Positions 17,429-33,263 of a stretch of 33,880 nt of DNA are shown piece after piece. Each line of letters begins with the position of its first letter. Within the stretch, counting starts at the first letter, position 1. The position numbers and the translations under genes are program-made. The stretch is taken from contig CALCJP010000107.1 of NCBI GenBank assembly GCA_937967625.1, positions 1 through 33,880 of the forward strand, in the 5' to 3' direction. The notes beneath the pieces were generated by a model. That model worked only from the letters and a program-made list of their open reading frames with translations. It had not been told where the DNA came from and ran no database searches. This stretch comes from an uncultured Saprospiraceae bacterium. Lineage in GTDB: Bacteria > Bacteroidota > Bacteroidia > Chitinophagales > Saprospiraceae.

Positions 17429-18424
17429 CTATTGATTGATTTTCTCGATGATTGCCGTCGTGTCTTGATTCTTCATGCATTTGAAATGTCCTTTGGGACA
17501 ATGCGCATGCCCAATTTTCGAGCACGGCCGACAAGGTAAGTTTTTCACTTCAAATGACTGGTTTCGATCCACATGATTTCCGTAAAATGGACTCATTCCA
17601 AACTCAGGAATTGTATTCCCCCAAACCGAAATGATTTCCTTCTGGAAAGCAGCCGCGATGTGCATCATGCCCGTGTCGGGAGTGATGACTTTGGCAGATT
17701 GCTTAATTAGAAAAGCGGATTCGTGAAGTGAGACTTTTCCGCAGGCGTTAATCACCTGCCTTTCGGCATACGTGGTTGCAATTTGCGCCCCTTCGTCAGT
17801 TTCGGCAGGTCCTCCCAACAGCACAATTGGCAGATTCGCCTTTCGGCAAATGTCGTCAATCAACTCACGCGGCATCCGTTTGGTTTGATGCGCTGCACCG
17901 ATTGCCATTGCGACATAAGGCTTCTCAAAATCTACTTTTACCCCCTTTCGGGAAATGCTCTTGAAGTAGCACTCATCATTTTCCGAAAGGAAAAAATCCA
18001 AGCCCTCGCCATCGTCTTGAACGCCTAATGTTGCCACTGCTTTTAGATATCTATCTACGATATGGACATGAGGTAGGTAATTGATTTTTAAATTAACTAT
18101 CAACCACTTTTGAATATTGATTTTATCAAAAGAAAAAGATTTTGCACGCAACGATAATTTGACTTGTCGAGTGCGCAGGTTATTATGAAGGTCGATGATG
18201 GCGTCATATTTTTGAGCTTTCAATTCAGGCATGACCTCATCTATTGACTTTTCAATAGAATAGACTTTATCTATATGTGGATTGGGTTCAAGGATTGTTT
18301 TGAACCCTTTCTTCGTTAGGAAATGAATCTCCGCGTTCGTCTGCTTTTTCAGGCATCGAATCAAAGGCGTTGTCAACACAATGTCGCCAATGGAAGAAAA
18401 TCGTATGATGAGGTATTTTTGCAT
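17429..18424 (-). CDS. Glycosyltransferase family 9 (heptosyltransferase-like); start MQKYLIIRFSSIGD at 18424
   Basis: IIRFSSIGDIVLTTPLIRCLKKQ N-terminus, VITPDTGMMHIAAAFQKEIISVWGNTIPEFGMSPF. Confidence 0.9.
   Translation of the reverse strand: MQKYLIIRFSSIGDIVLTTPLIRCLKKQTNAEIHFLTKKGFKTILEPNPHIDKVYSIEKSIDEVMPELKAQKYDAIIDLHNNLRTRQVKLSLRAKSFSFDKINIQKWLIVNLKINYLPHVHIVDRYLKAVATLGVQDDGEGLDFFLSENDECYFKSISRKGVKVDFEKPYVAMAIGAAHQTKRMPRELIDDICRKANLPIVLLGGPAETDEGAQIATTYAERQVINACGKVSLHESAFLIKQSAKVITPDTGMMHIAAAFQKEIISVWGNTIPEFGMSPFYGNHVDRNQSFEVKNLPCRPCSKIGHAHCPKGHFKCMKNQDTTAIIEKINQ
17838..17851 (-). repeat. Mini-hairpin ATTT-GCC-GAAA-GGC
   Basis: Exact match, in GT9 CDS (ICRKA). Confidence 0.85.
17943..17956 (-). 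repeat. Mini-hairpin ATTT-CCC-GAAA-GGG
   Basis: Exact match, in GT9 CDS (ISRKG). Confidence 0.9.
17978..17991 (+). repeat. Mini-hairpin ATTT-TCC-GAAA-GGA
   Basis: Exact match, in GT9 CDS (FFLSEN). Confidence 0.9.
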
Positions 18425-18478
18425 AGAGTTGGGCAAAGGAACGCTAACATTTATATTTGACCAAAAGTTGATAAAATT

Positions 18479-18787
18479 ATGACCCACGAATTTTACGCAA
18501 AACAGATTTATAAAATAACTTATCCTACTGGAAAGATTTATATAGGAAAGGATAGTTATGGAAGTTTTCGCTATTTAGGTAGTCCAAACAGTAAATTGGT
18601 TAATCAGGATTTTCTAAAATTACCTGAATCGGTTAGGAAAGATTATACTGTTCGAAAGGAGATATTGTGGGAATCTAAGGAGGCGTCTGAAAAAGAATTA
18701 TCCGAAAAGGAAGTTGAATTTATTTATAAGTTTGAATCGAACAATCCGCAGATAGGTTACAATCAATGGCCAAAGTTTAAATCATGA
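18479..18787 (+). CDS. Small GIY-YIG nuclease-superfamily-like protein
   Basis: IYKITYPTGKIYIGKDSYGS (GIY...YIG-like), downstream E and N residues (EVEFIYKFESNNPQIGYNQW). Confidence 0.65.
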   Translation: MTHEFYAKQIYKITYPTGKIYIGKDSYGSFRYLGSPNSKLVNQDFLKLPESVRKDYTVRKEILWESKEASEKELSEKEVEFIYKFESNNPQIGYNQWPKFKS

Positions 18788-26986: not shown

Positions 26987-27011
26987 CTTGTCCCGAACTT
27001 GCTTCGGGAGG
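26987..27011 (-). repeat. PEASSGQ-type palindrome copy, upstream of the TonB receptor
   Basis: cttgtcccgaacttgcttcgggagg, reverse complement of the copies at 62 and 14279. Confidence 0.9.
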
Positions 27012-31450: not shown

Positions 31451-32281
31451 ATGACTGAATTTTTAGAATACACGCTGTTTTCCTACGGAGATTTTAATCT
31501 CACGCCCGGCAATCTCATTGCAGTAGCCGTGATTTATCTGATGGCTGAATTGATGGTTTCGGTCATCAGCAAAAAGCTATTGGATTTCCTTTTTAGGCGT
31601 CGAAAAGTAGATGTAGGCAGAAGTTATGCGATTCGGCAATTCATAAAATATTTTATCTATTTCATTGCGACCATTCTCATTCTGCAGGCGCTTGGGCTGA
31701 AAATTACAGCACTACTCGCTGGTGGAGCTGCACTTTTGGTCGGGGTCGGTATTGGCTTACAACAGACCTTCAATGACCTCATCTCTGGAATTATTCTTTT
31801 GATGGATGCCTCGGTAGAAGTGGGGCATGTCATTCAGGTCAACGACATGGTGGGGCGCGTCAAGCAAATCTCTTTGCGAACCACCCACATCCAAACCCGC
31901 GACGAGGCGATTAAAATCATCCCCAACTCGAAACTGATTAACAATGAACTCATCAACTGGAGTACTGCTGAAAATGCAACCCGATTTCAGGTGGGGGTAG
32001 GGGTGGCGTATAGTTCTGATGTGAAGCTGGTTACGGAATTGATTTTACAGGCAGCGCGAGTTCATCCGAAGGTTTTGAAAGAACCCACTCCGAAGGTGAA
32101 ATTTTCCAATTTTGGAGACTCTTCCTTAGACTTTGAATTGCAGTTTTATAGCCGCGAATACTTTCGGATCGAATTTGTCAAAAGCGACCTTCGCTATAAA
32201 ATCCTTGAATTGTTTCGAGAAAATGATGTGGAAATCCCGTTTCCGCAGACAGATGTTTGGATGCGGAAAGGGGAGGGGTGA
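31451..32281 (+). CDS. Mechanosensitive ion channel (MscS) family protein
   Basis: LKITALLAGGAALLVGVGIGLQQTFNDLISGIILLMDASVEVGHVIQVNDMVGRVKQISLRTTHIQTRDEAIKIIPNSKLINN. Confidence 0.94.
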   Translation: MTEFLEYTLFSYGDFNLTPGNLIAVAVIYLMAELMVSVISKKLLDFLFRRRKVDVGRSYAIRQFIKYFIYFIATILILQALGLKITALLAGGAALLVGVGIGLQQTFNDLISGIILLMDASVEVGHVIQVNDMVGRVKQISLRTTHIQTRDEAIKIIPNSKLINNELINWSTAENATRFQVGVGVAYSSDVKLVTELILQAARVHPKVLKEPTPKVKFSNFGDSSLDFELQFYSREYFRIEFVKSDLRYKILELFRENDVEIPFPQTDVWMRKGEG

Positions 32282-32460
32282 TTGTTGCTCCGCCTGCGGC
32301 GGATGATTGTTTTGTTGCTTCGCAACTGATTGTTTCGCCACTTCGTGGCTGATTGTTTAATTGTTTCGCTTTGCTGATTGTTTTGTGGCTTCGCCACTGA
32401 TTGTTTCGCTTCGCTGATTGTTTGATTGTTTCGCCGCCTGCGGCGGATGATTGTTTTTTT
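32280..32460. repeat. Array of different small hairpins separated by constant TGATTGTTT
   Basis: CCGCCTGCGGCGG (32290, 32434), GTTGCTTCGCAAC (32314), GCCACTTCGTGGC (32337), GTGGCTTCGCCAC (32385), GCTTCGC (32408). Confidence 0.95.
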
Positions 32461-32463
32461 TTC

Positions 32464-32477
32464 GACTTTCGTCAAAT
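32464..32477 (-). repeat. Mini-hairpin ATTT-GAC-GAAA-GTC
   Basis: Exact match to pattern with a fifth arm sequence, intergenic. Confidence 0.75.
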
Positions 32478-32491
32478 GGGTTTGCAATTTC

Positions 32492-32505
32492 ATTTCGCGA
32501 AAGCG
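32492..32505 (+). repeat. Mini-hairpin ATTT-CGC-GAAA-GCG
   Basis: Exact match, intergenic. Confidence 0.9.
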
Positions 32506-32511
32506 AACTTA

Positions 32512-32537
32512 ACAGTCAAACAGTCAAACAGTCAAAC
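32512..32537. repeat. Tandem CAGTCAAA x3
   Basis: acagtcaaacagtcaaacagtcaaac. Confidence 0.9.
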
Positions 32538-32539
32538 CC

Positions 32540-33148
32540 CTACTTCAACTCCTCTTTCATCTTCTGATTGAAATCCAAGATATTCCCCATCGCAAAACAA
32601 GTGCGACAGCGCGGTTCGTACTTATCTTTTTCTCCGAGCACTACGGTATCCGCATTTGCCGAAAGGCGATAAGAATGGGTGGCTAAGTTGCCGCAGTGGC
32701 TACAGATGGCGTGGACTTTGGTGATATATTCGGCAACAGCCAAAACCTGTGGAATAGGGCCAAAAGGTCTGCCTTTGAAATCCATGTCGAGACCTGCCAC
32801 GATGATTCGCTTGCCATTGAGAGCTAAGTTTTGGACGACTTCCGTCAAATCTTCATCAAAAAACTGCGCTTCATCCACTCCCACCACAGAAACCCCATCC
32901 GTCAAGTTCATTAACTCAGACGAGTGGGCAATAGGCGTCGCTAAAATATAGTTTTCATCATGAGAGACGACTTTTCGCTCATCGTAGCGTGTATCAATTT
33001 TGGGCTTGAAAATCTCAACCCGTTGGTTCGCAATTTTTGCTCTTTTCAATCGCCGAATCAATTCCTCTGTTTTGCCAGAAAACATGCTCCCGCAAATCAC
33101 TTCAATCCATCCGCTGCGCTGCCCTTTAAAATGTGGTTCTAAAAACAT
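32540..33148 (-). CDS. tdk: Thymidine kinase
   Basis: [35 protein letters not shown], zinc-site Cys pairs (CSHCGN, CRTC). Confidence 0.96.
32654..32667 (+). repeat. Mini-hairpin ATTT-GCC-GAAA-GGC
   Basis: Exact match, in tdk CDS (RLSAN). Confidence 0.85.
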
Positions 33149-33156
33149 TTAATCAA

Positions 33157-33196
33157 TTTCAAGTACAAGAATCAAGTTCAAGTACAAAAAATCAAG
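33157..33196. repeat. Direct repeat TTCAAGTACAAGAATCAAG x2
   Basis: tttcaagtacaagaatcaag / ttcaagtacaaaaaatcaag. Confidence 0.8.
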
Positions 33197-33234
33197 ATTC
33201 GCTTCAGATCAGTTTTTTGAATTTGAACTTGAGG

Positions 33235-33263
33235 CTTGAACTTGATCTTATTTACTACTTTTG
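33235..33263 (+). promoter_or_regulatory. Candidate Bacteroidota-type promoter (TTG...TAnnTTTG)
   Basis: TTG at 33235, then TACTTTTG at 33256; matches the published Bacteroidetes -33/-7 consensus pattern; not validated. Confidence 0.35.

Follow-up and report, generated by a model that had tools for sequence, protein, structure and literature searches.

A dispersed family of hairpin-bearing octamer repeats arranged in inverted arms in the genome of an uncultured Saprospiraceae bacterium

The gap between the convergent genes mscS and tdk of an uncultured Saprospiraceae bacterium contains short hairpins whose stems differ from one unit to the next while the sequence linking them stays the same. 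This raises the question of what kind of element occupies the gap and how its stems remain self-complementary. We analysed the whole 33,880 bp stretch of DNA in which it lies (contig CALCJP010000107.1), referred to here as the window. A first, sequence-only reading had described about eight units with fixed linkers and varying self-complementary stems. The alternation holds and the linkers are present (nine were parsed, with seven hairpins), but that reading missed the GC-TTT-GC mini-hairpin, the core and the right arm (Table 1). The whole element (32279–32537) consists of a left arm, a core and an inverted right arm and fills the mscS-tdk gap, the left arm being opposed by a shorter right arm.

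The linker of the left arm was exactly TGATTGTTT in eight of its nine occurrences. The first linker read TGATTGTTG and was situated on the mscS stop codon, as had been noted from the sequence: the TGA forms the first three bases of the arm. The mscS orthologues in three relatives (G002, G003 and G005) are longer at this end by several to about a dozen residues (ending ...WVRNVEDLKGGQA and ...WLRNPEKLRQPENE), and because they extend further the element appears to have trimmed the 3′-end of mscS. A 71-nt period within the array reflects a block duplication. The right arm reads AACAGTCA x 3.4 and is of a C-variant type with no exact copy elsewhere in the genome. Folding of the 262-nt element gave a z of -4.8 as RNA (+ strand) and of -4.4 as DNA (- strand).

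Table 1. Features of the element between mscS and tdk, its neighbouring genes and the sites of a palindromic loop insert
Feature	Position	Strand	Remarks
mscS-like mechanosensitive channel gene	31451..32281	+	Pfam PF00924/PF21082/PF21088
Left arm	32279..32456	+	nine TGATTGTT(T/G) linkers, seven hairpins in between
Hairpin TCCGCC-TGC-GGCGGA	32289..32303	+	
Hairpin GTTGC-TTC-GCAAC	32314..32326	+	
Hairpin GCCAC-TTC-GTGGC	32337..32349	+	
Mini-hairpin GC-TTT-GC	32368..32374	+	absent from the sequence-only reading
Hairpin GTGGC-TTC-GCCAC	32385..32397	+	
Mini-hairpin GC-TTC-GC	32408..32414	+	opposite strand d(GCGAAGC)
Hairpin CCGCC-TGC-GGCGG	32434..32446	+	
Core	32456..32510	.	T-run, two GAAA-loop hairpins, dyad
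Core hairpin GAC-TTTC-GTC	32464-32473		
Core dyad AAATGnnnTTGCAAnnnCATTT	32474-32495		
Core hairpin TTCGC-GAAA-GCGAA	32494-32507		
Right arm (TGACTGTT)x3.4	32511..32537	-	pointing inward
tdk, thymidine kinase, convergent neighbour	32540..33148	-	Pfam PF00265
ACTTGTCCCGAACTTGCTTCGGGA sites	near 26987	+	
	19579, 33797	-	reverse-complement positions
	L040, L045, L053, L057		further loci

Searching the source genome confirmed that the array is real. The linker occurred 259 times genome-wide compared to 25 times for a reversed control word; pairs of linkers no more than 24 nt apart numbered 79 against 0, exact 5-bp hairpin units 58 against 0, and the core pattern 30 against 0 in the reversed control and 0 in five congeners. 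The search of genome and relatives that the sequence-only reading had suggested thus returned at least 25 elements in the source genome, mostly with two arms facing inward, and only sparse short arms or single matches in relatives. The genome is a metagenome-assembled draft of 278 contigs (3.08 Mb, 64% complete), with two of the arrays located at ends of contigs, as might be expected if faulty assembly or the collapse of low-complexity sequence had produced the arrays. Some twenty elements or more, however, are contig-internal, with unique flanking genes and a unit content that differs from locus to locus, and smaller versions occur in congeners and in a separate Saprospiraceae bin. An artefact is therefore scarcely credible.

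The base array is an octamer repeat, (TTTGATTG)n, with the hairpin inserts placed between TTT and GATTG. Parsed inserts were mostly 9, 15 or 17 nt long, and those from 24 regions of the source genome had a mean stem of 3.69 pairs compared to 2.02 after shuffling. The stems belong to a small pool (GYNRC-TTY-GYNRC, TCCGCC-TGC-GGCGGA and GC-TTY-GC) that recurs at unrelated loci, and in some arrays blocks of several units are duplicated. The array had been likened to a CRISPR turned inside out, and an RNA-processing or CRISPR-like array that gives a small RNA per unit would resemble it superficially in that constant parts alternate with variable ones. The comparison fails on that same pool, which is common to all loci and consists of palindromes instead of unrelated unique spacers; it also fails on the multi-unit block duplications, the inverted second arm, the shared core, the dispersal of arrays over at least 25 places in one genome and the result of an Rfam search, which gave 0 matches in the window at the gathering threshold. 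We consider such an array very improbable.

The stems were mostly perfect. The 5-bp stems fitted GYNRC with a TTY loop, and their second (T-A or C-G), third (T-A, C-G or G-C) and fourth (G-C or A-T) pairs varied on both sides. Among 54 stems 42 were perfect and 12 had one mismatch, which on the sense strand was A.C in seven, G.T in three and another in two; there was no excess of G.U-tolerant (G.T) mismatches on the sense, transcribed strand among these single mismatches. The loops differed between the strands. On the strand opposite TGATTGTTT, 78 of 117 hairpins (67%) had GNA or GNNA loops compared to 2 of 117 (2%) on the sense strand, counts in which hairpins within duplicated blocks are non-independent and all data are from one 64%-complete genome. 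Thirty-eight units had only a two-pair stem, with TTC or TTT loops. Fifteen GC-AAA-GC units broke the GNA rule, and inverted loops were almost absent (one GAA-sense unit).

Extraordinarily stable DNA mini-hairpins follow a loop rule of GNA or GNNA, and one of them, GCGAAGC, has a melting point of 78 C (PMC4686876). The relation to d(GCGAAGC) proposed from the sequence alone is borne out by the GC-TTC-GC unit of the left arm. Both the loop rule and the two-pair stems match this motif on one strand; it is a physical motif known from short synthetic DNA, whereas here it turns up repeatedly in a family of natural repeats. A comparison of strand energies by nearest-neighbour DNA parameters was uninformative because no stable fold results for two-pair hairpins under these parameters. 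As mirror images, the arms of one element matched no better than arms taken from different elements (the observed value was reached in 162 of 300 permutations), so the arms evolve separately.

Alignment of the window core with 12 cores from other loci of the source genome showed 25 invariant columns among the 13 sequences. Both orientations of the core relative to the arms were seen. In four cores the same hairpin loop holds a common palindromic insert of 24 nt. A palindrome of this length, ACTTGTCCCGAACTTGCTTCGGGA, occupies the loops of several different hairpins of GAA/GAAA type, where it follows CGAA(A/G) as though hairpin loops were its target (Table 1). In the cores of L043 and L052 there are strong bidirectional terminators of ordinary appearance. 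A double GAAA-hairpin core was additionally found inside coding sequence (17945–17989), in a GT9 gene (17429–18487, - strand). Its origin by insertion was rejected; as homologues are equally long at this site, the sequence looks converted, not inserted.

Two operon gaps were compared with those of relatives. The groS-groL gap is 253 bp with the element and 39–155 bp without it at eleven loci of relatives; the mreD-mrdA gap is 289 bp with the element and 11–101 bp without it in five relatives (G002, G005, G006, G007 and G008), G001 being left out of this comparison as it has a different gene in that gap. Both sites are thus empty in relatives, a pattern that points to recent gain of the elements at these two places. 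A mobile element or MITE would have discrete ends besides such empty sites; the ends here are arrays of varying length. The invariant core columns, the two core orientations, the common 24-nt insert and the empty orthologous gaps together show, as a pattern, the copying of elements or cores between loci.

Outside the source genome the family was sparse. Five genomes of the same genus had a few short linker arms, one of them with a single hairpin, and the core was found in none. Short octamer arms, smaller versions that sometimes had one hairpin, were present in two congeners and in a second, separate Saprospiraceae bin, and in the other 99 relatives searched the hairpin unit gave a single match in each of four. 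Linker-hairpin-linker units were sought in 85,462 species genomes and in viral contigs. The matches comprised three loci in two bins of Saprospiraceae, one of which is a congener, unrelated matches that recurred within a single Oscillospiraceae bin, and isolated matches due to chance. Other relatives had arms of other short words, inverted or tandem, such as TTTATTAG after tdk in G004 and TGGTTGTTTA in G028. The wider habit seems to be one of inverted short-repeat arms between genes, with the hairpin decoration expanded in the source lineage. mscS did not adjoin tdk in those congeners where the arrangement was visible, the source species being represented by a single genome.

The position of the elements bears on whether they are selected bidirectional terminators and 3′-end stabilisers, in which each hairpin plus UGAUUGUUU would be a weak intrinsic terminator, tandem units would add up and one arm would serve each converging gene. 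With gene calls taken from open reading frames, and thus approximate, 17 scored elements lay in 12 convergent, 4 co-directional and 1 divergent gaps, compared to 18 convergent, 56 co-directional and 24 divergent among the 98 other junctions in the same stretches. The resulting enrichment in convergent gaps (12/17 against 18/98, p = 3.5e-5) fits a terminator, as do the arms, which always face inward so that the order of hairpin and U-rich sequence follows transcription from each side. A U-rich linker follows each hairpin, a nine-T run follows the last hairpin of the left arm, and 11 terminator-like sites were found between 31000 and 33800 compared to 2.7 expected, mostly within the array.

Other positions do not fit. 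Elements lie inside operons (groS-groL and mreD-mrdA) and in two divergent gaps (metF/PycTM gene and ABC-F/methyltransferase); the groS-groL operon case and the divergent metF/PycTM case were added by hand to the 17 that were scored. With some elements in such places, they are not obligate terminators, and close relatives run both operons without the element. Two-pair hairpins are too weak to act as RNA terminators, and such units are present in the arrays; furthermore, the transcribed strand lacks the excess of G.U-type mismatches. We therefore regard a selected terminator as rather unlikely. The operon and divergent sites together with the two-pair hairpins, which misfit that role, favour a mosaic repeat acting at the DNA level.

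Among described systems, the closest likeness is to REP, BIME and REPIN sequences, which are short intergenic palindromes, are grouped in inverted orientation, have stems that vary by complementary changes and lie mostly at gene 3′-ends in convergent or co-directional gaps (PMC3733652). The present elements share this gap preference (12 + 4 of the 17 scored) and are likewise multicopy intergenic palindromes (58 exact 5-bp units in at least 25 elements), although their smallest units fall below the 20–40 nt of REP/BIME. They differ in having a constant linker of 8–9 nt where REP/BIME have a constant hairpin, in their long tandem arrays of one direction and in their separate common core. REP/BIME carry a GTAG (or CGTC) tag at the hairpin foot; here the stem is preceded by TGATTGTT-N-N and followed by TGAT, and on account of the missing tag we have not filed the element as a REP.

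That tag, and the RAYT gene that REP/BIME systems flank with their own repeats, also bear on the proposal that this is a REP family owing its mobility to a Y1 transposase (RAYT/TnpAREP) encoded in the same genome. Four PF01797 (Y1_Tnp) matches were found in the source genome, and both the positions and the inverted layout of the elements are like those of REP clusters (PMC3733652). None of the four Y1 genes (0/4 in this 64%-complete genome) is flanked by TGATTGTTT hairpin arrays, however; other palindromes are found there instead, and the hairpins have no GTAG or CGTC tag. Mobilisation by a Y1 enzyme of this genome, about a third of which is missing, is provisionally taken as quite improbable. 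The Y1 genes at L088, L087 and L089 are flanked by CCACAGGTTTTACCTGTGG, AACTGCTTCGCAGTT and GGTGCGTAGCACC, which are probably separate REP-like families.

Two further kinds of repeat are looser parallels than REP/BIME. Tandem heptamers (TAACTGA and others) in Beggiatoaceae, Cyanobacteria and some Bacteroidetes are intergenic direct repeats of 7–8 nt which, in the parts of the source consulted, are likewise lineage-specific and in some cases adjoin stop codons (PMC4679880). In the best-studied genome they are described there as mostly upstream of start codons, and the same parts mention neither hairpins inserted into them nor a core nor arms paired in inverted orientation (PMC4679880). The palindromic microsatellites of Fusarium mitochondrial DNA and the double-hairpin elements of fungal mitochondrial DNA have tracts in inverted arms as the present element does, are optional between related species and have been proposed to be mobile (PMC7218506). 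They differ in being organellar and in having runs of A/T where octamers with GNA mini-hairpins are found here. That no element of this form has a name, as the sequence-only reading had supposed, agrees with Rfam and with the literature searched, in which few subscription journals were covered and no named element of this exact form was found. As we read these comparisons, the element behaves as interspersed palindromic mosaic repeats do, REP/BIME among them.

On balance we therefore favour, as having a slightly better than even chance of being right, a palindromic mosaic repeat that is non-coding, lineage-specific and BIME-like, acts at the DNA level, is tolerated at gene ends and may be used locally for termination. 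In such a repeat two inward octamer arms, built of TTTGATTG and bearing perfect short hairpins, would flank a core of two GAAA-loop hairpins, and arm length would rise and fall by slippage and by the duplication of multi-unit blocks, of which the arrays show the pattern. On the strand opposite TGATTGTTT, inserts that become single-stranded in replication may fold into the very stable mini-hairpins with GNA/GNNA loops. Template switching within a hairpin would then carry a change from one side of the stem to the other, so that stems drift and stay perfect. Whole elements or cores would be copied between loci, a step of which the pattern is again visible, and would survive mainly beside gene ends, chiefly in convergent gaps, where they would do little harm. 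There they may help to end or protect transcripts from both sides.

Template switching in hairpins is a documented route to making and restoring perfect stems (PMC8794818). It would explain the drift with pairing kept and the single-mismatch intermediates, and the stems are probably kept perfect by such switching during replication, the alternative being selection for structure. As inverted loops are nearly absent, the switching would need to stay within one folded strand. This near absence counts against the favoured reading, since some forms of template switching should give inverted loops. The 15 GC-AAA-GC units outside the GNA rule count against it too, and the convergent enrichment is also compatible with selection for termination. 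Elements were not seen to move, and the source genome (64% complete) yielded no cognate enzyme for their spread.

We propose more tentatively, as a possibility that falls short of even, that the hairpins are both built and kept perfect at the DNA level, by GNA/GNNA folding of one strand and template switching, giving covariation without a selected RNA in a family that spreads in one lineage. When both sides of a stem change together, this usually counts as strong evidence for a functional RNA, and this family has many perfect stems in a setting where an RNA function looks unlikely at several loci. The family could thus serve as a natural experiment on the extent to which mutation alone, through template switching in hairpins, yields covariation. 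It also exemplifies a REP/BIME-like filling of the gaps between genes, in a phylum for which few such repeats seem to have been catalogued, and it employs the most stable DNA mini-hairpins known in a strand-specific way.

Two other repeat tracts were observed in the window. Between tdk and the next gene (33151–33249) two further arms lie in inverted orientation; they are built from another short word (CAAGTA / TTGAAC type). An intergenic region between 11603 and 11693 contains AAGAATC-type repeats followed by TCTTGAAGCGAAGCG units, which also contain GCGAAGC.
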